From positions 1 to 20,388 of the IMG/VR virus record IMGVR_UViG_3300009149_000371: 20,388 nucleotides of DNA. One strand, given 5' to 3'. The stretch comes from a virus. Below are positions 304-19,411 of the stretch, piece after piece (within the stretch, counting starts at the first letter, position 1; each line of letters begins with the position of its first letter). The notes under the pieces are model-generated. The model was not told the DNA's origin and made no database searches. It was given only the letters and a program-made list of their open reading frames with translations. The position numbers were made by a program, and so were the translations under genes.

Positions 304-341
304 TCCTCTTCTTCATCCACTAAAAAGTTAAATGTTATCAT
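300..341 (-). CDS. 13-codon minigene: duplicated tail of the small gene upstream of the oxygenase
   Basis: The frame is MITFNFLVDEEEE followed by a stop. Its ATG (341-339) overlaps the TGA of the oxygenase gene (340-338), and its TGA (302-300) overlaps the ATG of the 58-residue gene (303-301). Both junctions are ATGA, the usual form for coupled translation. The peptide matches the C-terminal end of the broken small gene at 945-1054 (VNFLVEEEND), and the two share 16 identical bases. It is best explained as a leftover copy of that gene's tail, kept when the oxygenase gene entered. Whether the peptide has a function is unknown. Confidence 0.45.
   Translation of the reverse strand: MITFNFLVDEEEE
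316..331. repeat. Direct repeat, left copy (16 bp) flanking the oxygenase gene
   Basis: TCCACTAAAAAGTTAA occurs here and again at 961-976 in the same orientation. The two copies sit just outside the two ends of the 2OG-Fe(II) oxygenase gene. Here it encodes the NFLV part of the 13-codon frame. Confidence 0.85.
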
Positions 342-952
342 AGTATCAATTCTGTTAAGTTTTTATTATCTCCAATAATTCCTTTAATAAATACATTAAA
401 AGCTAAACTAATTCTAGTATTATCTCCTTCTTTGGTTTCCACCATATGAGGTAAAGAAGAAGGAAATAGTATAATATCTCCAGTTTTAACAGGAAACCAC
501 CATGTTTCTGAATTGTATAAATTCCAATCTCTAACTTCTAGTTTAATAGTTTTGTAATTATCCTTAAAAAATTTAATCTTATCATGTTCTTCATGGCCGT
601 TAATATAGAATACACCAGACACTAATGAATTAGGGTGTGCGTGTTTATGATGATATTGATTAGTTTCAGTATAGTTTAACCAAGACTGTGTAATATAAGG
701 AGTAACCGCATCTCTGGTGGATATCACTTTGTCAAAATAATCTTGTACTATTAAATCTAAATCTTTTTTAATATTGGTAAAGGGTGTTTCATTAAGAATA
801 TAATTATTATTAGAGGTTATGTTACCATCATTTTTATAGCAATCTTTTTTAGATTTATCCACGAACTTTAATTCTAATGGTGTTAATGCTCTATTTAATT
901 TTGACATATAGACAGGGGTTGGAAATATCCCACTAATATTAGATTCAATCAT
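338..952 (-). CDS. 2OG-Fe(II) oxygenase family protein (204 aa)
   Basis: This is a putative Fe(II)/2-oxoglutarate-dependent oxygenase of the small phage and marine bacterial type (2OG-FeII_Oxy_5-like). Visible signatures are SWLNYTETNQYHHKHAHPNS (about residues 89-108, with the first metal-binding region), SGVFYINGHE, then GDIILFPSSLPHMVE with the distal histidine, and TRISLAFN with the arginine expected to bind the 2OG carboxylate. Length suits the family. The substrate is unknown; protein, nucleotide or small-molecule hydroxylation are all possible. The start at 952 follows a GGAGGAAG ribosome binding site. The gene is markedly more AT-rich by eye than its neighbours, with A- or T-ending codons, and a 16-bp direct repeat brackets it. 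Both suggest recent acquisition. Confidence 0.85.
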   Translation of the reverse strand: MIESNISGIFPTPVYMSKLNRALTPLELKFVDKSKKDCYKNDGNITSNNNYILNETPFTNIKKDLDLIVQDYFDKVISTRDAVTPYITQSWLNYTETNQYHHKHAHPNSLVSGVFYINGHEEHDKIKFFKDNYKTIKLEVRDWNLYNSETWWFPVKTGDIILFPSSLPHMVETKEGDNTRISLAFNVFIKGIIGDNKNLTELIL

Positions 953-1054: not shown

Positions 1055-1289
1055 TGCTTTTTCCTTTCTTTCCTTTGCGGAGGCGTTCGGGCTCGTTACT
1101 ATAGCCGCGAATTTGGGTTACGTTATGACGTCTCATTTCTTTCAACAACACCTCGCACACCTCTACGGGCAGACCTGTGGTTTCTTGTAGTTCTTTTGTT
1201 GCGGACTTCATATTTGTTTGCCCGACTCGATAGTCAACCATTGCGTCTATCATTCCGGTCACATCTACTTTGGTTTCAATTTTAGCCAT
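1038..1289 (-). CDS. Hypothetical protein, 83 aa
   Basis: The protein starts MAKIETKVDVTGMIDAMVDY, has a mainly helical middle containing TTGLPVEVCEVLLKEMRRH, and ends in a basic tail rich in Lys and Arg (RKGKKGKS). It overlaps the end of the SNF2 helicase gene by 25 bases, with AGGA of its ribosome binding site inside that gene, so the two are probably co-expressed. No signal peptide or membrane segment is visible. The basic tail would fit nucleic acid binding, but that is a guess. I do not recognise the family. Confidence 0.7.
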   Translation of the reverse strand: MAKIETKVDVTGMIDAMVDYRVGQTNMKSATKELQETTGLPVEVCEVLLKEMRRHNVTQIRGYSNEPERLRKGKKGKSNEAVR

Positions 1290-2725
1290 TCTGCTGCTTC
1301 CTCTCCTAATACTTTTGCTCCGATAGCTATCTTAGCTTGAAGCGATTTCACTATACGTTCGTCTATCGTACCTTCACATATTATATCTACATATGTAACG
1401 GCTTTAGTCTGGCCTATCCTATGGCATCGATCCTCCGATTGGGCTCGATATTCCAAATTATAATCATTGGCATAATAGATCACCAGATTTGCCTGGGTTA
1501 ATGTCAGCCCATACCCTGCGGTAGCTGGATTCCCTACAAAAAAACGTAAGGGATGCCTTGGATTCTGGAAATTAATAATGATATCATTGTGCTCATCGTC
1601 TGAAGTGTCTCCAAAATAAGAAGCAGCACTGTCTTCGCCGTACTTCTCTTTAAGAACGCGCACAATTTCCTTGATGTCATGTCTAAACCTAGACCAGATG
1701 ATTGCTTTACCAGTACTTTCCTCAAGAATTTCCAAGACAGCATTCATCCTGGTAGAGGGAAAGGTCAACATCTCGCCGTCATCGGTCTTCAAATGACCTG
1801 ACATAACCTGCTGCAGTCGTAAAAGCTGAGTGATTACAGCCGGAGCGGTCATTAGTTCTCCTCCTTCCAGTAAAACCATAGCATGTTTACGAATACTTTC
1901 ATACATCTTCGCCTGTTCCTTGCTCAGATCCACATATCTAGTGGTGTAGATCTTATCCGGGAGGTCAAGACATTCCGATTTCAGCACTCGATAGGAGAAT
2001 TCGTTTATCTTTTTTGTTAATTCATCCAAGTTTCTGTACCCCACCACCTGTTGGAAAGCATGTGTACCCAAGGTTACTCGTTTTACTACCGCGTAGCGTC
2101 CTTGAAAAGCGTAGAAGCTATCGTAACCCAAGATGCCAGGACCAAGGAACTCGGCTTGAGCATAGATATCCAACGGGGACTTTGTGATTGGGGATCCCGT
2201 GAGTAACCTTTTGAATTCGAACCCAGCAGCTATCTTATGAAGAGCCTTAGTCCTCTTAGCTTTAGGATTTTTAATAGTTGTACTCTCGTCAATGGCTATC
2301 AGACCATGCCCCCCGTACTTTTTTGCCATCCATTCCCCTGCTTGCCGTCCTTTTATGGACGAGAATGCCTCGACATTCATAACAAAAACAGTAAGACCAG
2401 AGTATGCTTCCTTCACGGAGGACATTTCCTCACGTTGTTTCTTATTAGGGGTTGCGATCCATCGGATCATCCGGTGAGGCACCTCATCAGACATATGTTG
2501 AGGCAGTTCTTTCTGCACCCAATTTCTATACACTCCCTTCGGAGCGATAATCAGGGCGAAATTGACCTTGCCTTTTTGGAAAAGAACTCCCAAGTTATCG
2601 ATAAGGATTTTTGATTTGCCCGTCCCCATTTCACACAGGAAAGCGTAACTTTTTCTCGAACCAGCCTTCTCCATCCCAGTCTGTTGGTGAGCATAAGGTT
2701 TAGTTTTAAATTTGTAGTTGACCAT
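1265..2725 (-). CDS. SNF2-family (superfamily 2) helicase / DNA-dependent ATPase
   Basis: This is a two-domain SF2 ATPase of the SNF2/RapA type. In order, it shows a Q-like YAHQQTGM segment, Walker A GTGKS (about residues 34-38), DEST as the DEAH-type motif II (about 146-149), LTGSPITKSPLDIYAQAEFL as motif III, and a C-terminal RecA domain with AGYGLTLTQA and the motif VI segment RAQSEDRCHRIGQT with its arginine fingers. SNF2-like phage proteins are thought to remodel protein-DNA complexes or help replication and recombination. The start at 2725 is chosen because GGGAG lies 8 bases upstream; the ATG at 2740 has no site and would lie 2 bases from the predicted transcription start. It is the first gene of the leftward operon. 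Confidence 0.93.
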   Translation of the reverse strand: MVNYKFKTKPYAHQQTGMEKAGSRKSYAFLCEMGTGKSKILIDNLGVLFQKGKVNFALIIAPKGVYRNWVQKELPQHMSDEVPHRMIRWIATPNKKQREEMSSVKEAYSGLTVFVMNVEAFSSIKGRQAGEWMAKKYGGHGLIAIDESTTIKNPKAKRTKALHKIAAGFEFKRLLTGSPITKSPLDIYAQAEFLGPGILGYDSFYAFQGRYAVVKRVTLGTHAFQQVVGYRNLDELTKKINEFSYRVLKSECLDLPDKIYTTRYVDLSKEQAKMYESIRKHAMVLLEGGELMTAPAVITQLLRLQQVMSGHLKTDDGEMLTFPSTRMNAVLEILEESTGKAIIWSRFRHDIKEIVRVLKEKYGEDSAASYFGDTSDDEHNDIIINFQNPRHPLRFFVGNPATAGYGLTLTQANLVIYYANDYNLEYRAQSEDRCHRIGQTKAVTYVDIICEGTIDERIVKSLQAKIAIGAKVLGEEAAEWLKLKPK

Positions 2726-2748
2726 TTCTTTTTCTCCCATTAAGGTAG

Positions 2749-2805: not shown

Positions 2806-3360
2806 ATGGAACTATTTGAAGACTACTTCGACGAATCCGAAGCGGTGGCATTAGTTAGCACCGAAACCACTAAAAACCTGAGTATGCTAGTGAGGCAGCT
2901 TAGAGATCTGGACAAAAAGATTGAAGATTCCGAAGCGGATTTGAAATCTTTGAAGTCTGAGCGTCACCAACTTTCGATTGACAGTATCCCCACGCTTATG
3001 GATGAGATGGGCATTGAGAGATTGGACGTGGACGGGGTAACTGTTCAACGAAAGTTGATAGTTCATGCGTCGATTCCTTCCGACAGAAAGGAAGAGGCTC
3101 ACGAATGGCTTCGTCAAAATAACCTTGATGATATTATAAAAAATGATATCACCTGCTCGTTTGGGAAAGGTGAGGACAATCTCGCTGGAGACGTTGTGGG
3201 AATGCTCGAGGAGCGTGGTTTTTATCCCAAGACGAAGACACACGTCCACCCAAGTACACTAAAAGCGTTCGTGAAAGAACGTGTGGAGTCAGGAAAACCT
3301 ATCGATCTAGATATGTTCGGTGCGTATATTAACAATGCAGCAGAAATAAGGAGGAAGTAA
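2806..3360 (+). CDS. Coiled-coil protein of the replication operon, 184 aa, unknown function
   Basis: Residues about 22-57 form a charged heptad-like stretch (LRDLDKKIEDSEADLKSLKS) that predicts a coiled coil. A compact domain follows with MGIERLDVDGVTVQRK, IIKNDITCSFGKGE and a C-terminal VHPSTLKAFVKERVESG. The ribosome binding site AAGGAA lies about 9 bases before the ATG. It heads the rightward operon and is followed one base later by the SSB-like gene, so a role in DNA replication, recombination or host nuclease control is likely. A coiled coil followed by a small domain recalls Gam-like nuclease inhibitors, but I see no decisive motif. Confidence 0.75.
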   Translation: MELFEDYFDESEAVALVSTETTKNLSMLVRQLRDLDKKIEDSEADLKSLKSERHQLSIDSIPTLMDEMGIERLDVDGVTVQRKLIVHASIPSDRKEEAHEWLRQNNLDDIIKNDITCSFGKGEDNLAGDVVGMLEERGFYPKTKTHVHPSTLKAFVKERVESGKPIDLDMFGAYINNAAEIRRK

Positions 3361-3361
3361 T

Positions 3362-4150
3362 ATGAATGAAGTAGCTAACAAAAAAGGAACCGCCGTATCG
3401 ACCGATATTATGGACGATATTTTCGAGACAGCAGGAGAAGGTACAACTTTCGACAGCTCTGAAATGCAAATCCCTTTTGTGAGATTGATCCAGGCTCTAT
3501 CGCCTCAACTCAACAAAAAGAAAGCGGAGTTCATTGCGGGATCGTCGCAAGGAGATGCCTTCAATACGGTCACAAGCCAGTACTGGGCGGGAGACTCAGG
3601 ACTTATAGTTGTTCCGTGTTACCAGACTACTAAGTACCTAGAGTTTGTACCCCGTGAAAGCGGTGGTGGATTTCAAGGGGAGATTCCAGCAGGAGATCCT
3701 CGGATTCAGCAAGCGTCTAGGGTGGGGTCAAAGGAAATACTTCCGAATGGCAACGAGCTTGTGAAGTCAGATCAACACTTTTGTATTGTTGTTGGTGAAG
3801 ACGGAACCACACAACCGGTCGTTGTGGATATGAAATCCACACAATTAAAAGTCAGCCGGCGGTGGAAGACACAGATTGCTATGCTAAAGATCAAACATCC
3901 GACGACAGGTGCTATGATCTCTCCAGCAGTTTTCGCTACGAAATGGAAACTCACCGCAATCGAACAGTCTAATGACAAAGGTACATTTGCCAACTGGCAG
4001 GTGGAGAATGTAGGCCTCGTTGATAGTCGAGATCTGCTACAAGAAGCCAAAGCTTTCCGCGCATCGATTGCGGCAGGCGAGGTGAAGGCGGCTGCGGAGG
4101 ATGTTCCTAACCCCTCCAGTACTGAAAACGAGGATGACATTCCGTTTTAA
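3362..4150 (+). CDS. Putative single-stranded DNA-binding protein (262 aa)
   Basis: The C-terminus is an acidic tail ending NEDDIPF, the same tip as bacterial SSB, which docks replication and repair partners. The body is β-rich (VTSQYWAGDSGLIVVPCYQT, FCIVVGEDG), fitting an OB-type fold, but bears no obvious sequence match to bacterial SSB. Ser/Ala/Glu-rich linker sequence precedes the tip, as in SSB. GGAGGAAG overlapping the end of the previous gene is the ribosome binding site. Position next to primase and polymerase genes supports the role. The assignment rests on the tip and context rather than a catalytic signature. Confidence 0.65.
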   Translation: MNEVANKKGTAVSTDIMDDIFETAGEGTTFDSSEMQIPFVRLIQALSPQLNKKKAEFIAGSSQGDAFNTVTSQYWAGDSGLIVVPCYQTTKYLEFVPRESGGGFQGEIPAGDPRIQQASRVGSKEILPNGNELVKSDQHFCIVVGEDGTTQPVVVDMKSTQLKVSRRWKTQIAMLKIKHPTTGAMISPAVFATKWKLTAIEQSNDKGTFANWQVENVGLVDSRDLLQEAKAFRASIAAGEVKAAAEDVPNPSSTENEDDIPF

Positions 4151-4165
4151 GTATATCAGTCCCGT

Positions 4166-4200
4166 GTGGTGGGGGTCGGGGGATACCCCACCACCTTTTT
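4166..4200 (+). terminator. Terminator-like hairpin between the SSB-like and primase genes
   Basis: A 9-bp perfect stem, GTGGTGGGG (4166-4174) with CCCCACCAC (4186-4194), encloses an 11-base loop and is followed by C and five T. This is the form of a factor-independent terminator. It lies inside the operon just before the AGGAG site of the primase gene. It may act as a partial terminator, giving more SSB-like protein than primase and polymerase, or stabilise the upstream mRNA end. Confidence 0.8.
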
Positions 4201-4211
4201 AGGAGAGAACA

Positions 4212-5747
4212 ATGTCGAATGCTAAAAGACTATTGGCGGTTTTTGAGGGGTCTAGTATTGCTCATGGGAGAACGACCGTTGGTCGTGTTGGGCGGAATGG
4301 AAAGACCGAAGCTAAGTACCATGTTATCCGGGAACCTCTGACCGAAGCGCTCGTGCAGGATCATATAGATGGTAAGCAAGGTGTTAACTCAATCCCTATC
4401 AACTCCGGTAACAACTGTAAGTTCGGTGTCTTGGATATTGATATCTACGACTTGGATTTAGCCGAGTTAAACAACAAGATCCGTCGCCTGAAGCTACCCC
4501 TGTTTCAGTGTCGATCTAAGTCAGGTGGAGCACATCTGTATTTATTTCTAAAGGATTGGGAACCGGCGGCTCTAGTGCGAGAATATCTGCTAGAGATATC
4601 TGTAGTGTTAGGGTACGCCAGTGACTGTGAGATTTTTCCGAAGCAAGATAAGATTATGTCTGACCGAGGAGACGTTGGCAGCCACATTAACATACCGTAT
4701 TTCAACGCAGAACAAACTATGCGTTATTGTTTCGATAGCCGGGGCCAAGCGATGGAGTTGGAAGAATTCCTAACCGCAGTTGAGACTGGTCGGATATCGG
4801 TGTCAGAATTAAATGCGATGAATATGGGTGGAAAAAGGGAGAACTTTACGGACGGTCCTTACTGCCTTGAGGTGATGACGGGACTAGGCAAGGTAACAAA
4901 ATATAGAAACATCTTTATGTTTTCAGTGGGAGTGTACGCCCGGATGAAATGGCCTGACGACTGGAAGAAGCATCATGAAGAATATAACAGGAAGTTTTGC
5001 TCTCCAGCGTTGCCCTCTAGGGAGATCGCGGACATACAGAATTCATTGGAGAAGAAGGAGTACTTCTATACATGTGATACCTGTCCGTTGAAAGATCACT
5101 GCGATAAGGATCTGTGCAAGACTAGACCTTATGGTATCGGGAATGAGGCCGTAGATCTTCCTAAGATGGGAGGTCTTACCGTCCTAATGTCTCAACCAAG
5201 GCTGTACTTTATGGACGTTGAAGGCAAACGAGTTGAGTTGACTACAGATCAATTGGTTAACCAAGGCCTCTGGGCCAAGGCGTGTGTCGAACAGATCAGT
5301 TACTTTCCATCCCTGATGAAGCCGAGCAAGTGGACATCAATGATTAATCAGATGCTGCAGCAAGGTACATACCTTGAGGTAACAGAAGAATTTACATATT
5401 CTGGACAGTTCAAGGATCATCTTAGAAACTATTGCACGAGCCGAGTTCGAGCGATGAGCCCCGAAGAGATGCAGATGGGCAAGCCCTGGACCGAGGACGG
5501 AGTAACTAAGTTTATGATCAACGGTCTGATGGACTATCTTAACAAACAGGACTGGAAACATTGGACTAAAACTCAGGTCCAAGAAGGAATTAAGGCCTTG
5601 AATCCTGACGGGGACGGAATCGGGAAACAAAACATAATGAGACAAGGGAAACGAACGTCTATTAGAGTTTGGTTCGTCCCTTCATTTGAAGAAGAAGAAC
5701 TTGAAATACTGGAAAAGGAGAACGACTATGACGAAATCCCATTCTGA
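4212..5747 (+). CDS. Archaeo-eukaryotic-type primase (AEP superfamily, TOTE-like), 511 aa
   Basis: The three AEP motifs are visible: GVLDIDIYD with the metal-binding Asp pair (D75, D77), SKSGGAHLYLF (motif II, about 102-112), and EIFPKQD (about 140-146). A cysteine cluster follows, C288-x2-C291-x5-C297-x4-C302 with KTRPYGIG after it, likely binding zinc or an iron-sulphur cluster. It would make primers for the family A polymerase encoded downstream. The last residues are acidic and end DYDEIPF, like the tip of the SSB-like protein encoded just upstream. The site AGGAGAG lies 7 bases before the ATG. No helicase domain is fused to it. Its last 20 bases overlap the next gene. Confidence 0.82.
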   Translation: MSNAKRLLAVFEGSSIAHGRTTVGRVGRNGKTEAKYHVIREPLTEALVQDHIDGKQGVNSIPINSGNNCKFGVLDIDIYDLDLAELNNKIRRLKLPLFQCRSKSGGAHLYLFLKDWEPAALVREYLLEISVVLGYASDCEIFPKQDKIMSDRGDVGSHINIPYFNAEQTMRYCFDSRGQAMELEEFLTAVETGRISVSELNAMNMGGKRENFTDGPYCLEVMTGLGKVTKYRNIFMFSVGVYARMKWPDDWKKHHEEYNRKFCSPALPSREIADIQNSLEKKEYFYTCDTCPLKDHCDKDLCKTRPYGIGNEAVDLPKMGGLTVLMSQPRLYFMDVEGKRVELTTDQLVNQGLWAKACVEQISYFPSLMKPSKWTSMINQMLQQGTYLEVTEEFTYSGQFKDHLRNYCTSRVRAMSPEEMQMGKPWTEDGVTKFMINGLMDYLNKQDWKHWTKTQVQEGIKALNPDGDGIGKQNIMRQGKRTSIRVWFVPSFEEEELEILEKENDYDEIPF

Positions 5748-5952
5748 TAAACTTATACCTGTCGGCGAAGTGGCTGAGTGGCTTGGGGTATCTAGGTCCA
5801 CAATATATAAGTGGGTTGAGCTAGATAAATTCCCAGCACCTTTGATCCTTGGACCCGCAATGGACGGAAAAAGAAGTGCTAGTCGCTGGGTGGAGGCTGA
5901 AGTCAAGGACTGGCTTGATTCTCGAGCCAGAGGCATTCAACATGGGGTCTAA
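5728..5952 (+). CDS. AlpA/MerR-type helix-turn-helix protein (74 aa)
   Basis: IPVGEVAEWLGVSRSTIYKWV (with W and E nearby) is a typical winged HTH of the AlpA/excisionase type (HTH_17 or Phage_AlpA). SASRWVEAEVKDWLDSRA matches the usual end, where an Arg-Trp pair precedes the helix. The start at 5728 is taken because AAGGAG lies 7 bases upstream; a longer frame from 5686 would mostly reuse primase sequence. Such proteins act as transcription regulators or excision factors. Here the gene overlaps both neighbours in the replication operon, which suggests a regulator of replication genes or a DNA-bound accessory factor. Confidence 0.85.
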   Translation: MTKSHSDKLIPVGEVAEWLGVSRSTIYKWVELDKFPAPLILGPAMDGKRSASRWVEAEVKDWLDSRARGIQHGV

Positions 5953-7471
5953 CAGCACTCTGATCTTTGGTCCTCCTGGGTGCGGCAAGACCCATACTCT
6001 AATTGAGAGTGTGAAGGAGGCGTTAACTAATGGAACACCTCCGGATCGAATTGCTTTTGTATTCTTTACGAAGAAGGCTATCCGGGAAGCTACAGATAGA
6101 GCGTGTGCTGAATTTAATCTTACAGACAAAGATCTTCCTCACTTCAGAACATTACACTCGATGGCGTTTAGGGGATTAGGACTTCAATCTAGTGACATGC
6201 TTGCACGAACGGACTGGAAGGTTATCGGGCAACAACTTGGGTTAGTCTTTGATGGGGCGAATAGCATTTCTCCCGAGGATGGAATGATTATGCCCGTGGC
6301 CGTTGGGAACGGAGATAAATACCTCGAGATAATGCACCGAGCCAGATATAAATTAGTTACAGTGGATCAAGAGTATAATCATGTTGGGAATCGAGAATTG
6401 TATTATGCTCTCTTCGATAGGATTGAGCGGGTTGTATCGGAATATAAGCGGCAGCTTTTCAAATGGGACTTTGTAGACCTCATTGAGAGCTACATCGAGA
6501 ACGTGGAGCCCCCGTTCTTGGATCTTCTGATTGTTGATGAGGCTCAAGATCTTACGCCTCTCCAGTGGAAGATGGTGCAGAAGATAGCTCTTAGTGCAAA
6601 GAAGGTTCTTTATGCTGGGGATGATGACCAGGCCATACACAGATGGACAGGGGTAGACGTTGAATTGTTTTTGAATTGCAGTGAGCAGACGAGGATCTTA
6701 ACCCAGAGTTATAGACTGCCGATATCGGTACATGGGTTATCTCAACACATGGTTCAACGAATAAACAACAGAAAAGAAAAAGATTTCCGACCGACTTCCC
6801 ACGAGGGAACCGTGAATTTTCACAGGAGTCTTGAGGAACTTGATTTTTCTACGGGGTCATGGACTCTTATGGCGCGAACTAATTCTATTGTGAAGGGGTG
6901 GGGAGAGCAGATGGAGGACGCAGGTCTTTTGTATTCTATCAAAGGGCGAAGTAGCATTGATCCAGTAACGGCGGAGGTTATTTCTTTTTGGAAAATACTG
7001 CGACAAGGAGGGAAGTTACCTCTTGCATCCGTTATAAAACTCTACGAAACTGTACCTAAGATGGGAGACTTTAGAGTAGTCAAAAGAGGTTCTAGTAAAC
7101 TTCTAGAGACAGTGAACCCTGAGAGTTTCCTGTCTTACGAAGATTTGAGTGTGGACTACGGAATGGTTGCGCCCCAGGATAGAGATCCGATGGACGTGGC
7201 TCGATTAGGTACACATGCCAAGCAGTATATCCAAGCCATTGAGCGTAGAGGAGGGGATATTATGAGCGTCCCCAAGGTAAAGCTTTCAACTTTTCATGCA
7301 ATGAAAGGAGGAGAAGATGATAACTGTGTGGTCTCTATGTCTACCCCAAGGGTTTGCGCTGAGAGTCCCCATCAAGACGACGAACACCGCGCCTTTTATG
7401 TCGGCGTAACGAGATCCAAGAACAATTTGCATGTCATTGAGTCACACAAAGGGTATAGGTATCAAATATGA
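5942..7471 (+). CDS. UvrD/Rep-type superfamily 1A DNA helicase (about 509 aa)
   Basis: Motifs appear in order: Walker A GPPGCGKT (about residues 10-17), FFTKKAIREA (Ia), HFRTLHSMAF, VDEAQD (motif II, 198-203), GDDDQAIHRW (motif III), LTQSYRLP (IV), KLSTFHAMKGGEDD (V) and HRAFYVGVTRSKNNLHVI (VI). This is a 3'-5' SF1A helicase, though Dda-like 5'-3' helicases share many motifs. The start at 5942 is right at the Walker A domain; an in-frame upstream ATG at 5849 would read through the HTH gene. AGAGG lies about 7 bases upstream. As no DnaB-type helicase is seen, it may unwind the fork. Confidence 0.93.
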   Translation: MGSNSTLIFGPPGCGKTHTLIESVKEALTNGTPPDRIAFVFFTKKAIREATDRACAEFNLTDKDLPHFRTLHSMAFRGLGLQSSDMLARTDWKVIGQQLGLVFDGANSISPEDGMIMPVAVGNGDKYLEIMHRARYKLVTVDQEYNHVGNRELYYALFDRIERVVSEYKRQLFKWDFVDLIESYIENVEPPFLDLLIVDEAQDLTPLQWKMVQKIALSAKKVLYAGDDDQAIHRWTGVDVELFLNCSEQTRILTQSYRLPISVHGLSQHMVQRINNRKEKDFRPTSHEGTVNFHRSLEELDFSTGSWTLMARTNSIVKGWGEQMEDAGLLYSIKGRSSIDPVTAEVISFWKILRQGGKLPLASVIKLYETVPKMGDFRVVKRGSSKLLETVNPESFLSYEDLSVDYGMVAPQDRDPMDVARLGTHAKQYIQAIERRGGDIMSVPKVKLSTFHAMKGGEDDNCVVSMSTPRVCAESPHQDDEHRAFYVGVTRSKNNLHVIESHKGYRYQI

Positions 7472-7743: not shown

Positions 7744-7764
7744 ATGGATTCTGAGGATCAGTAA
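7744..7764 (+). CDS. Six-codon minigene in the polymerase leader
   Basis: ATG GAT TCT GAG GAT CAG TAA encodes MDSEDQ. It has a strong ribosome binding site (AGGAGAGAGAACAATG) almost identical to that of the primase gene (AGGAGAGAACAATG at 4201-4214). Its stop overlaps the polymerase start as TAATG. It could be an upstream frame that sets polymerase output by re-initiation, or the remnant of an earlier start. Confidence 0.5.
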   Translation: MDSEDQ

Positions 7765-9680
7765 TGCAGAAGAACCTATTTGAAAAGACAGGCAAGGACA
7801 ACGATTTCTTAATAAAGAATGAGATGGATCTTATCGAAAAAGACTGGAACATACCTCCAGAGTATCCCGACTTGACGGGGTATAAACAAATAGCCGTGGA
7901 TCTTGAAACCTATGACCCAAACTTAACTACCCTAGGCCCTGGGTGGTCTAGGAAAGACGGACACATAGCCGGGATCGCAGTAGCAGCAGGGGATTATTAC
8001 GGATATTTTCCCATCCGACATCAGAACGGTCACAACTTAGACCACAAGATGACGATGAAGTGGCTCAAGAAGCAGATGGAAACTCCGAACATAGATAAGA
8101 TCATGCACAATGCCACCTACGACGCAGGATGGCTCCGTGTAGAGGGCATAGAGGTTCAGGGTAGGATAATCGACACAATGCTTGCTGCCGCGCTCATCGA
8201 CGAGAACAGGTTCTCCTACAGCCTAAACAATTTAGGACGTGACTATCTCGGTGAGACTAAGAGTGAGAAATTACTTCGTGCCGCTGCAGCAGAGTGGGGC
8301 ATAGACCCGAAGGCTGACATGCACAAGCTACCACCAAAGTATGTTGGAGCATACGCGGAACAGGATGCCGTGCTTACATTAAAGCTATGGGAAAGATTTA
8401 AAACCGAAATTAACACACAAGAACTCAATCACATCTTTGAATTAGAAACTTCTCTCATCCCTTTAATGCTAGACATGCGGGAGAAAGGTGTTCGTGTTGA
8501 TCTAAACAAGACGGACGAGATCCGCAAAGAGTTACGGATCAAGGTGCAAGATTTAAAATCTGAGATTAAACGTAGAACAGGTATTTTAATTGAGCCTTGG
8601 GCTAACGCCTCGGTCGAGAAGATCTTTAAATCTCTAGACATAGACTACCCCCGGACAGAAGCGGGAGGTTCGTCCTTTACAAAACATTTCTTAAACGCAC
8701 ATCCTCATGAGGTAGCTCAGATGATTGTGAAGTTAAGGGAGTTTGACAAGGCTGATAGTACTTTCATTGATAGTATCATGCGACATGAGCATAACGGTCG
8801 TATCCATACTGAATTCCATCAGCTAAGAAAAGACAACGCAGGAACTGTTACAGGTAGATTTTCTTCTAGCAACCCGAACCTACAACAGTTTCCAGCGAGG
8901 GATCCAGATATTAAGAAGGCTATTCGCGGACTGTTTCTTCCAGAAGAAGGACAAAAATGGGGAAGCTTTGATTACTCGAGCCAAGAACCGAGGCTCCTGG
9001 TTCACTTCGCATCCTCCATTCCTGAGAGGCTTAGACATTCTGTCGTGAATACTATCGTGGAAGAGTACAATACAAACGATGTAGACCTACACCAGATGGC
9101 GGCAGACCTAGCCGGGATCACACGCAAAGAAGCTAAAGTCGTGAACCTTGGTATTATGTACGGGATGGGCGTTGGAAAGTTATCCACACAACTTGACATA
9201 ACTAAGGATGAGGCGAAAGAACTTCTCGAACAGTACACGGAGAAGATTCCTTTTGTAAAACAACTGGCGACAATGGCAAGCCGGAGAGCCGACACGAAGG
9301 GACAGATACGAACGATCCTAGGACGGAAGTGCAGGTTTCATCTATGGGAACCACGATCCTTTGGGTACAACAAGGCATTGCCTCTCGACGAGGCGGAGAA
9401 AGAATACGGAGGGTTGGGCATGATACGGAGAGCCTTTACATACAAAGCGTTAAACAAATTAATTCAAGGGAGTGCAGCGGATCAAACAAAGAAAGCTATG
9501 GTTGATTGCTATGCTGAGAATTTTATTCCTATGCTAACAGTCCATGATGAGTTATGCTTCTCCGTAGAAGGTCAGGAGCAAACTGATAGGATCAAGGAAA
9601 TTATGGAAACAAGTCTTCCCTTAAATGTACCCACGAAAGTGGACTGCGAGGTTGGAGATAATTGGGGAGAGGTAGGATAA
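7764..9680 (+). CDS. polA: Family A DNA polymerase with 3'-5' exonuclease domain
   Basis: The 3'-5' exonuclease domain shows AVDLETYD (D46, E48), HNATYDAGWL and YAEQDAVLT. The polymerase domain shows motif A SFDYSSQEPRL (D403), O-helix motif B KVVNLGIMYG, and motif C VHDE (594-596). The 5'-3' exonuclease domain of bacterial Pol I is absent, as in other phage polymerases of this size (638 aa). Position 462, equal to Phe762 of E. coli Pol I, is Leu; this residue affects nucleotide selection and replication speed. The start follows GAGGA seven bases upstream and overlaps the minigene stop. It replicates the phage genome with the primase and helicases encoded upstream. Confidence 0.97.
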   Translation: MQKNLFEKTGKDNDFLIKNEMDLIEKDWNIPPEYPDLTGYKQIAVDLETYDPNLTTLGPGWSRKDGHIAGIAVAAGDYYGYFPIRHQNGHNLDHKMTMKWLKKQMETPNIDKIMHNATYDAGWLRVEGIEVQGRIIDTMLAAALIDENRFSYSLNNLGRDYLGETKSEKLLRAAAAEWGIDPKADMHKLPPKYVGAYAEQDAVLTLKLWERFKTEINTQELNHIFELETSLIPLMLDMREKGVRVDLNKTDEIRKELRIKVQDLKSEIKRRTGILIEPWANASVEKIFKSLDIDYPRTEAGGSSFTKHFLNAHPHEVAQMIVKLREFDKADSTFIDSIMRHEHNGRIHTEFHQLRKDNAGTVTGRFSSSNPNLQQFPARDPDIKKAIRGLFLPEEGQKWGSFDYSSQEPRLLVHFASSIPERLRHSVVNTIVEEYNTNDVDLHQMAADLAGITRKEAKVVNLGIMYGMGVGKLSTQLDITKDEAKELLEQYTEKIPFVKQLATMASRRADTKGQIRTILGRKCRFHLWEPRSFGYNKALPLDEAEKEYGGLGMIRRAFTYKALNKLIQGSAADQTKKAMVDCYAENFIPMLTVHDELCFSVEGQEQTDRIKEIMETSLPLNVPTKVDCEVGDNWGEVG

Positions 9681-17513: not shown

Positions 17514-19411
17514 TATCTTCTCCCGTCAGTTCGCGTGTCAATTCTCGGAGTACCTAATCTCCAGCTAACGCCAAGATCGGAAGAGGTGACCTTGAGTGCC
17601 ACAGACCTGCCCCGTAATCTAACGTCCGCTTTCTGTGTGAATTGTTCAAAGGGTAAAGTTGTTGTGGAAGAACTCGTCAAAGCAACCGTGTCTGAGCCCG
17701 TCTGACCGTAAGAACTACCAGGATAATCTTGCATACTCATAGTCATACTTACGGAAGGATCTCCTTCCGTGGAGCCAACAAAACTGAAGTCAGGGATTAT
17801 TTTGCTGATAGCCATGAATCTATCTCCCTCCCCTATGTCCATTGGGCTTGACTCTATTGAGGAAGCCATCGCAGTCCCGTCCGCATCGTATCCAACCTCA
17901 TGGCTAAAGATATTTCCATTGTACGTTGCGGTTGGGTATTCTCTTATTCCTCGATCCATAAACGCTGATCGAGATAAATTTCCATAATACCAAACGCCTT
18001 CAGAGTAATTAAACGTCACATATGAATCGTTCTGACCGTCCCCTCCGTTAGCGGTGGAGTTTGTGTTTGAACAATAGAACCAAGTTACCTCACTGAACTC
18101 ACTGTTAAGGCCCCCATACACCTTATCTCTTTGCTGATAATTAAAATTAGAAAACACTTTATTTTTTACAGTGCACGGCAACTGTTTGACTGTACCCTCA
18201 TATAAATAGAACGTGTCTTGGCCCATCCAGAATACCGCGTCATCTACAGCGATCGTTGCATTTGGAGCCATGATAGTAATACTATTCGATAACGGTTGAA
18301 TGCCGAAAAAATAAGGAGCTCCTAGATACTGCATCGTATGCAGGGAACTATTCGTCCAAACTAAAATCTCGCGCTTAGTTTCCAAGGCTCTAATGAACGT
18401 GGACCCAGAACCTATAAGTAAATCCCCAGCGGAATTCGTAGGGGACGGGGACCAATTTAGAAAAGACTCCTGACTAGAGAATCGTATCAACAATGGGTCT
18501 TGAACGCCCGACCCAAGGGTGTTTGTACCAAAGGCAATGACATGACGACTGTTGTCCGCTACCATGATTTGCTTGGCTATTATAGGTGGATCACTAGCTT
18601 GGGACGAGAAGTCAGCTCCAGCTATATCTACGGCTCTCGCAGCAAGACCCCCACTTTGATCCCAATAATAAATTCCCGCATCCCTAGGATTAATTAATAA
18701 GTCTTCCCCAAAATTATCCTGGGACCAAAGACGCAGCTCTGCCGTAGTAACTAGATCACTAGCAGAACCCCAAGTTGATCTTCCCCAAGTACCTGCGCCC
18801 CAACCTGTTCCTCCAACGCCTGTATCAAGGCCCACGTTTATTTGATACTGTCCGTCCACGCCAGAACCGCCGTTCCCAGTATCACTAGAATTAGCTAGAA
18901 CCGCGCTCCCAGAGGTGTCTTTGGCGGTGACGGTGTATGAATTCGCATTAATAACGGTTAGGACTTGGTACTCTTGGTTAAGTACCGCAGCGGTTATTAC
19001 CCCTCCTAAACTAACTGCTCCTGCAAATGTGACAAAATCATTCTGTACCGTCAAGCTGGCAGAATCTGTTACGGTCAGGGTAGAAGAGCCATCGACTGCC
19101 GCAAACGTAATTGAGTTGGTGCTTACTTTTCTAATTGGAGTTACGTCATAGAAAGCTTGTCCGCTTTCTATGTAGAACTTCAGTTCCGTTCCAATACCCA
19201 GATATTGATCCGAGACCTGAGATACCCAGGCGTGCAAAGATCTACACGTTCCAAGGAACGTGGCCGTTGAATACTTGACCCAACCGCCTATCTTCTCAGG
19301 AAAACCTAACCTGAATCTAACCTTGTCAGAATCTACCCAACCGCCTTCATTCGAATACGAAGTCACATCACGGTTGATTCCAGGCCTAAACTTTAACTTG
19401 GTTAATGGCAT
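17513..19411 (-). CDS. Tail/head completion protein, P22 gp10-like (packaged DNA stabilisation type), 632 aa
   Basis: The N-terminus, KLKFRPGINRDVTSYSNEGG followed by WVDSDKVRFRLGFPEKIGGW, is the hallmark of the phage stabilisation protein family (Phage_stabilise, as P22 gp10), which forms part of the tail hub beneath the portal. The rest is β-rich with many Ser, Thr and Gly residues. The body is longer than P22 gp10, partly through inserted β domains near residues 95-180. AGGGG is the ribosome binding site. It could also be called a tail tubular-type protein. No signal or membrane segment is seen. Confidence 0.72.
   Translation of the reverse strand: MPLTKLKFRPGINRDVTSYSNEGGWVDSDKVRFRLGFPEKIGGWVKYSTATFLGTCRSLHAWVSQVSDQYLGIGTELKFYIESGQAFYDVTPIRKVSTNSITFAAVDGSSTLTVTDSASLTVQNDFVTFAGAVSLGGVITAAVLNQEYQVLTVINANSYTVTAKDTSGSAVLANSSDTGNGGSGVDGQYQINVGLDTGVGGTGWGAGTWGRSTWGSASDLVTTAELRLWSQDNFGEDLLINPRDAGIYYWDQSGGLAARAVDIAGADFSSQASDPPIIAKQIMVADNSRHVIAFGTNTLGSGVQDPLLIRFSSQESFLNWSPSPTNSAGDLLIGSGSTFIRALETKREILVWTNSSLHTMQYLGAPYFFGIQPLSNSITIMAPNATIAVDDAVFWMGQDTFYLYEGTVKQLPCTVKNKVFSNFNYQQRDKVYGGLNSEFSEVTWFYCSNTNSTANGGDGQNDSYVTFNYSEGVWYYGNLSRSAFMDRGIREYPTATYNGNIFSHEVGYDADGTAMASSIESSPMDIGEGDRFMAISKIIPDFSFVGSTEGDPSVSMTMSMQDYPGSSYGQTGSDTVALTSSSTTTLPFEQFTQKADVRLRGRSVALKVTSSDLGVSWRLGTPRIDTRTDGRR

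Follow-up and report, generated by a model that had tools for sequence, protein, structure and literature searches.

Lineage-matched C-terminal tips on a phage SSB-like protein and on its priming or unwinding enzyme suggest a common docking motif

Introduction

The closest described precedents for C-terminal tails that connect phage replication proteins come from T7 and T4. In T7, the acidic tail of gp4, with its terminal Phe, binds T7 DNA polymerase (PMC12230644, PMC8472574, PMC12593628), and in T4, the C-terminal region of the single-stranded DNA-binding protein (SSB) gp32 binds Dda, a helicase of superfamily 1 (SF1; PMC11551737). Here, we analyzed IMG/VR record IMGVR_UViG_3300009149_000371 (the window; a whole virus record of 20,388 bases), in which an SSB-like protein and an archaeo-eukaryotic primase (AEP), encoded by adjacent genes, end in NEDDIPF and DYDEIPF, respectively. 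Both ends had been pointed out in a first-pass annotation and were confirmed from the translations of the open reading frames (ORFs); the start given there for the feature, 4120, lies inside the SSB-like gene, but the gene itself begins at 3362. Our literature search, which covered open-licence papers, returned no account of an SSB-like shared tip on an AEP primase. The elements concerned are the following.

3362..4150, + strand: SSB-like protein, 262 aa; Pfam PF23977 (Pam3_Gp34), 203.5 bits (cut-off, 27); phrog_2402
4127..4147, + strand: SSB-like tip NEDDIPF, C terminus of the 3362-4150 ORF (...STENEDDIPF)
4212..5747, + strand: AEP primase, 511 aa; Pfam PF22548 (AEP-TOTE), 6e-11, 42.8 bits (cut-off, 27)
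5682..5744, + strand: primase C-terminal tail, predicted to be disordered (residues 491-511, falling pLDDT)
5724..5744, + strand: primase tip DYDEIPF, C terminus of the 4212-5747 ORF (...EKENDYDEIPF)

By these profile scores, the SSB-like protein is a member of the Pam3_Gp34 family (the PHROG function entry for phrog_2402 reads "unknown"), and the primase is a member of AEP-TOTE and of phrog_21866, which matches its residues 1-505 (256.8 bits, 1e-75). Both ends also have the form of the bacterial SSB C-terminal tip (SSB-Ct), namely acidic residues followed by IPF at the end of a disordered tail; the tails of the two proteins have predicted local distance difference test (pLDDT) values of 49-62 in our models.

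Results

Conservation of the tip in the clade of the window

Clade A comprises the best 80 of 204 viral stretches encoding a relative, plus the window. The first-pass annotation had proposed conservation of a DxIPF-type primase end as a check, and the end proved to be conserved, with 78 of the 81 clade A primases terminating in PF. The same is true of 67 of the 68 SSB-like proteins found, no SSB-like ORF having been found in 13 of the clade A loci. After reduction to 95% non-redundancy (23 primases with a mean core p-distance of 0.42), the last two positions of the primase tip have zero entropy and the third has 1.1 bits, against an average of 2.17 bits at positions 9-24 from the end. Among closed ORFs of at least 100 aa that encode neither protein, PF ends occur in 5/6,482 and [IVL]PF ends in 1/6,482, a background of mechanical ORFs from the fetched loci, many of which are not genes. 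No third carrier of the tip was found in clade A, where the only other [IVLT]PF ends (2/6,674 ORFs of at least 40 aa) belong to two cut SSB-like fragments. The observation of a shared tip is thus confirmed as real.

The three clade A primases without PF are irregular in other ways: the frame of L013 enters the next gene, that of L022 is closed prematurely, and that of L079 continues past the end of its contig; the first two are perhaps assembly errors or real changes. In L065, the SSB-like protein ends in EIPV instead of EIPF, and its primase keeps DIPF.

Two unrelated hydrophobic ends could in principle coincide, or the primase end could be a by-product of the gene that overlaps it in another frame.

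5728..5952, + strand: AlpA-like helix-turn-helix ORF (Phage_AlpA, 1.3e-9); its start shares nucleotides with the primase tip, in a different frame

In the window, the overlap between the primase end and the start of this ORF is 20 nt (5728-5747), and 11 of the 12 clade A representatives compared have 17-23 nt in common between the primase end and the following ORF, as a by-product would lead one to expect. However, the tip codons vary silently in clade A (CCA, CCC, CCT, and CCG; ATC, ATA, and ATT), while the AlpA frame reads SHS, SPS, YRS, FHS, and others, and representatives of clades B, C, and D keep their tips with an overlap of 1-4 nt or none. The AlpA overlap is therefore not the cause of the tip. 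Chance agreement is opposed by the rarity of PF in the background and by the co-variation of the tips across lineages described below, so that we regard this explanation, in either form, as scarcely credible.

The two tips change together between lineages

An outward search from the primase found 25 phage records, 16 of which were opened, and sampling was extended by seven viral scans and one genome scan, with both protein ends read. Across this sample, the pairs (given as SSB-like/primase) switch jointly, as in DIV/NIV, DAPF/EAPF, ETEL/EPDL, HSEF/KAEF, and IPFA/PPFV. In clade B (80 loci, among them phage DSL-LC04), the SSB-like proteins mostly end in xPF and the primases nearly always in SPF, and two loci carry the pair AVF/AFF; many of these tips lack any acid residue, so that the "acidic tip" of the first-pass annotation is a fair description of the window and not a constant of the system. 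Clade C (80 loci, among them HTVC027P) pairs QDIV or EDIV with ENIV, plus variants. The pairs of clade D are SGEF/KSEF in SH-Ab 15497, HSEF/KAEF in Kokobel2, SDEY/KSEF in JeffCo, ETEL/EPDL in L264, DEPEL/EPDL in L262, and EEEM/ETEF in L263. In clade F (58 loci), both ends are usually F with acid residues, and ct3Et533 carries IPFA/PPFV. Six of the loci from the genome scan had both proteins (L499, DAPF/EAPF; L490, DNVPF/SEVPF; L485, KQQF/TRAF; L486, DEVPF/TEAF; L487, NSQF/PDKF; L492, GRPF/KQND), and no SSB-like ORF was found in the other 15. Five further loci, obtained from the bacterial genomes described below, are not part of the permutation tests: L531 has a similar pair (DEDVL/EEEI), L528 and L529 are clade H-like with the primase tip absent, the primase of L527 is cut, and L530 is without an AEP primase.

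For statistical comparison, the primases were clustered at 80% identity, giving 89 clusters, 80 of them with both ends. In this set of 80, a terminal F, Y, L, M, I, or V is present on 64 primases and 74 SSB-like proteins; the clusters whose primase lacks one are 10 in clade H, 3 in clade G, 2 in clade F, and L492. Similarity over the last three residues was 5.17 for matched pairs, compared with 2.58 under free shuffling (p=5e-5, the floor of the test) and with 4.27 under shuffling within clades (p=0.004), the latter test giving p=0.0007-0.025 across the last two to four residues. Shuffling the 12 clades gave p=0.008. With one pair per lineage, the last three residues yielded p=2e-5 by BLOSUM and 6e-5 by identity in a set of 16 lineages (one per clade, with five single genome loci kept separate), and p=2e-5 by BLOSUM when 24 lineages including the exceptions were used; the last residue only gave p=0.01-0.09. 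Among clades taken singly, clade F gave p=0.002-0.05 and clade B p=0.04-0.27, the latter being significant at one of three tip lengths. As judged from these comparisons of tip residues, the tips of both proteins change together between virus lineages.

Within whole genomes, the matched tips are almost exclusive to the two proteins. In HTVC027P, [DN]IV ends occur in 2 of 87 coding sequences (CDS), which are the SSB-like protein and the primase only. In SH-Ab 15497, 3 of 58 CDS end in F, namely the pair (GEF and SEF) and a small SSB ending in LPF (L509:31377-31676; 99 aa; phrog_18154, single strand DNA binding protein), the full end of which is DLDDDLPF; this phage thus has a different tip type on each of two SSB-like proteins, DDDLPF on the small SSB and SGEF on the Pam3_Gp34-type protein. 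In DSL-LC04, PF ends are found in 3 of 84 CDS (leaving out one annotated across the record start), one on each member of the pair and one on a 61-aa orphan (EPAPF).

The DSL-LC04 orphan lies at L505:26811-26996 on the - strand and has no Pfam or PHROG match. Similar small ORFs (~27-61 aa from the first Met) with EPAPF or EEAPF ends lie 4.4-4.8 kb downstream of the primase in 7 of the 69 clade B loci that reach far enough (L103, L104, L140, L141, L158, L163, and L170), and possibly represent a third carrier of the replisome tip.

A Pam3_Gp34-like match occurs in 498 phage records, of which the tips read here cover a part. In bacterial genomes, the Pam3_Gp34 family is nearly absent (1/369 and 0/385, the latter without a positive control). 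A Maricaulis metagenome-assembled genome (MAG), G004, has seven Pam3_Gp34 matches, on contigs C2, C10, C26, C30, C67, C92, and C97; these are probably several phage contigs binned together with the MAG.

A common docking motif as the preferred explanation

We propose, with moderate confidence, that both tips are one docking motif for the same phage-encoded pocket in the replisome. From tips matched within genomes, we infer that (i) the tips bind a pocket, (ii) the pocket is the same for both, and (iii) it is encoded by the phage. In primase and SSB-like protein alike, the last three to six residues would form an identical docking motif on flexible tails, contacting the pocket through the terminal aromatic or aliphatic residue and the free carboxylate. 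At the phage replisome protein that bears the pocket, the primase would then either load onto SSB or exchange with it, and a hand-off would follow in which the primase is put on SSB-coated single strands and freed once SSB retakes the pocket. A pocket specific to the phage lineage would, under this proposal, explain why both tips drift jointly.

Several results weigh against a common motif. A partial Mantel test given core divergence was weak (r=0.12, p=0.03), and clades A and D singly give no matching signal (p=0.16-1). In clade D, the PSA28 pair is a mismatch (NNDM/RSEF). In clade E (80 loci), where the SSB-like proteins end in STPY or similar, the primases mostly have xPY followed by five residues ending in F, unlike the SSB end. 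Primases without the tip beside a tip-bearing SSB-like protein, which the first-pass annotation had named as the pattern that would contradict it, do occur in part of the sample: in clade G (Nanhaivirus; 3/3 clusters), the SSB-like proteins end in VPF or IPF and the primases in GQD or GEA; in clade H (80 loci; 10/10 clusters), the SSB-like proteins end in [VTI]PF and the primases in a FHTGKFRT-like sequence or QxxN; and in L492 an SSB-like tip stands beside a tip-less primase. The primase motif is therefore dispensable in clades G and H and in L492, which limit the tip rule and do not overturn it.

The tip-less primases are found in clade H loci L095, L345-L424, L528, and L529, and in clade G loci L089-L091 and L483. 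In most clade G and H representatives, the primase end and the start of the next helicase gene have 14-62 nt in common. We do not claim this overlap as the cause of tip loss, as clades A and F overlap yet keep their tips.

The first-pass annotation had suggested a shared pocket, with competition with SSB for host or phage partners or a hand-off to the same helicase or polymerase. Its shared pocket survives as the best reading of the matched tips, with the target moved away from the host. If both tips copied the bacterial SSB tip and competed for the SSB-interacting proteins of the host, the form seen in clade A would be readily explained, since its tips are almost the bacterial hexapeptide DDDIPF (the E. 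coli form; PMC5872125). That phage tips of this kind can be functional is indicated by the HK620 SSB, for which removal of the six C-terminal residues (NDYPPF) lowered Sak4 recombineering tenfold, an effect exerted via a phage protein (PMC5928155). Against mimicry, both tips depart jointly from the host form in many lineages (DIV/NIV, EF/EF, and APF/SPF), and clade B tips are often uncharged. Further, Pelagibacter HTCC1062 is the recorded host strain of HTVC027P (QDIV/ENIV) as well as of HTVC023P (ESVPF/none), and since these same-strain phages differ in their SSB-like tip, the host does not dictate it. The HTCC1062 phages and the separate DDDLPF-ending small SSB of SH-Ab 15497 point to a partner of phage origin, and we consider host mimicry very unlikely as a general explanation; an added host contact could still occur in clade A, whose tips resemble the bacterial tip.

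Matching tips on enzymes of other kinds

To the phages with AEP-TOTE primases we compared five without, three Pam3_Gp34 phages having been opened first and MW2 and RCIP0363 thereafter; the enzymes of MW2, RCIP0363, and Hera were identified by tblastn with Ab18 and SN proteins. Two of the five encode a RepB-type primase-helicase, with tip pairs KKAPF/KKDPF in Pseudomonas phage Ab18 and GKPVF/DKPPF in Bordetella phage MW2. The other three pair the SSB-like protein with a VapE-like helicase in Pbunavirus SN (AEEF/GEDF; its separate RepB-type primase ends in IGEE) and in Escherichia phage RCIP0363 (AEEF/KDEF), and end in AEQF/EGAF in Serratia phage Hera, a weak match and the poorest of the five. 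All five of these enzymes (5/5) end in F, with last residues that resemble the SSB tip, and the five pairs taken by themselves gave p=0.017-0.033 over the last three or four residues. In the SN, Hera, RCIP0363, Ab18, and MW2 stretches, an acid residue followed by F or Y is also found at the end of other CDS (e.g., PEDF at SN 18142-18348), which makes an EF-type tip a less specific mark than PF or IV.

Tip matching hence spans priming and unwinding enzymes of three kinds and is not AEP-specific. We tentatively extend the proposal to a lineage-specific "address tag," an idea for which we see nearly as much reason to believe as to doubt. Phages with a Pam3_Gp34-type SSB would place the same tip on the enzyme that primes or unwinds their DNA, whatever its family, as a private and exchangeable code that co-evolves with a phage-encoded pocket, holds the parts of each replisome together, and separates them from the SSB networks of the host and of other phages.

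Candidate owners of the pocket

The window encodes the following candidate partners and neighbors.

1265..2740, - strand: SNF2-like helicase (SNF2-rel_dom, 1.9e-19); candidate pocket owner
2806..3360, + strand: Pam3 gp33-like protein (DUF7307; PF23984, 1.1e-28); constant companion of the SSB-like gene
5942..7471, + strand: UvrD-like SF1 helicase (UvrD-helicase, 8e-24; also matches the AAA_19 domain); candidate pocket owner
7764..9680, + strand: A-family DNA polymerase (DNA_pol_A, 5.8e-64); T7-like candidate partner

A survey of profile families in 13 named records found the gp33-like family in 13/13, and SNF2 and AAA_19 (SF1 helicase) likewise in 13/13 each, the last two being broad families whose presence is only permissive. 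The shared partner is probably a phage helicase, either SF1 (UvrD/Dda-like) or SNF2, these being the likeliest owners of the pocket because they were found in every named record checked.

A T7-like arrangement, with the A-family DNA polymerase of the phage as the target of both tails, would place the pocket elsewhere. The tail of T7 gp2.5 reportedly depends on its terminal Phe. The gp4 tail does so as well (PMC12230644), and an A-family polymerase is encoded by the window and by 10/13 named records. However, SN, Hera, and RCIP0363, whose tips are matched or similar, have no DNA_pol_A match. We therefore rejected this polymerase as a universal partner (absent in 3/13 records); as the general explanation it is quite unlikely, and within the window it is a possible partner.

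A 2OG-Fe(II) oxygenase is also encoded at window positions 338-952 on the - strand (PF13759, 3.2e-22; phrog_81).

Predicted folds of the two proteins

The model of the primase (76 sequences) has a mean pLDDT of 92.2 and a predicted template modelling score (pTM) of 0.61, with pLDDT blocks of 83-98 over most of the chain, declining from 80 to 59 to 49 at the end. Its first 200 residues resemble the CAPP prim-pol structure 7nqf (Z 20.9; root-mean-square deviation [rmsd] 3.0; 190 residues aligned). In an alignment of 89 rows, D75, D77, S104, H108, C288, C297, and C302 are invariant; we take D75/D77 to be the catalytic DxD and S104/H108 the SxxxxH motif. The window primase accordingly has both the catalytic motifs of an AEP and, in the model, a prim-pol fold, and no helicase domain match was found in it by Pfam and PHROG profile searches.

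The model of the SSB-like protein (62 sequences from the window and related loci) has a mean pLDDT of 89 and low tail blocks of 62, 52, and 58. Foldseek gave no match with E <0.001. When VIA-align was run on Foldseek's candidates, the top match was the phiC31 recombination directionality factor (9teh; Z 8.5; rmsd 4.0; 155 aligned), followed by the T4 gp32 core (1gpc; Z 6.7), RB69 gp32 (2a1k; Z 6.7), and BRCA2 OB folds (Z 6.7), plus many SSBs and single-stranded DNA (ssDNA) binders. A PDB sequence search with this protein gave nothing useful, and NCBIfam has no name for the SSB-like proteins. The label "SSB" for the 3362-4150 product is plausible on this modeling, its gp32-like OB fold being predicted and not proven. 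The phiC31 factor and the Pam3_Gp34-type family may, judging from the modeled fold, have a common fold or origin.

These models bear on a further explanation, according to which the pocket lies in the SSB-like protein itself: its own tail would cover the DNA-binding groove when the protein is free, and a copied primase tail would dock there and recruit the primase. A groove co-evolving with both tips would require just the tip co-variation that is observed. On the other hand, the tail pLDDT of 52-62 means that the model supports no intramolecular docking; the SSB tips without a primase partner in clades G and H are neutral in this respect. We judge this explanation unlikely and retain, as the preferred reading, a pocket on another phage replisome protein.

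Discussion

If a shared, lineage-specific docking motif is correct, SSB-tail docking would not be only a hub owned by SSB, and separate enzyme families would repeatedly have acquired the same tail. Co-varying tips would then offer a route to replisome partners that needs nothing but sequence, would predict orphan genes that join the replisome (e.g., the 61-aa DSL-LC04 protein), and would allow docking codes to be tested by tip swaps between purified proteins.

Among described systems, the CAPP prim-pol and TOTE AEP enzymes have, to our knowledge, no shared SSB tip, although no search for one was made; 7nqf is the closest solved fold of the primase domain in the window, and Pfam assigns the window primase to AEP-TOTE. 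The C-terminal motifs of human PrimPol bind RPA and are not known to copy an RPA tail. The likeness to PrimPol is that of an AEP enzyme with short C-terminal motifs that link it to ssDNA-binding machinery (PMC5457501). The T4 gp32/Dda pair resembles the present system in the predicted gp32-like fold and in the SF1 helicase domain of 13/13 named records. It differs in that, in T4, a helix inside the C-terminal region makes the contact and the extreme tip does not, and we know of no T4 primase tail involved in it. With the bacterial SSB-Ct, the clade A tips share a near-identity to DDDIPF and a position at the end of a disordered tail; unlike the bacterial case, a second, non-SSB protein carries the tip here, and lineage forms such as IV, EL, EF, APF, and IPFA occur on both proteins.

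T7 gp2.5 and gp4 are alike in logic: a phage SSB and its priming/unwinding enzyme each rely on a C-terminal tail that finishes in an aromatic residue. That of gp4 binds basic patches on the polymerase (PMC12230644, PMC8472574, and PMC12593628). In contrast to T7, the window has an AEP primase, a separate SF1 helicase, and a putative gp32-like SSB; the T7 arrangement of primase and helicase in one chain is not found in the window and is confined to relatives like Ab18 and MW2; three tip-sharing phages are without an A-family polymerase; and the tips vary and co-vary by lineage. Should the proposed motif hold, the T7 tail pair would be one case of a wider rule.

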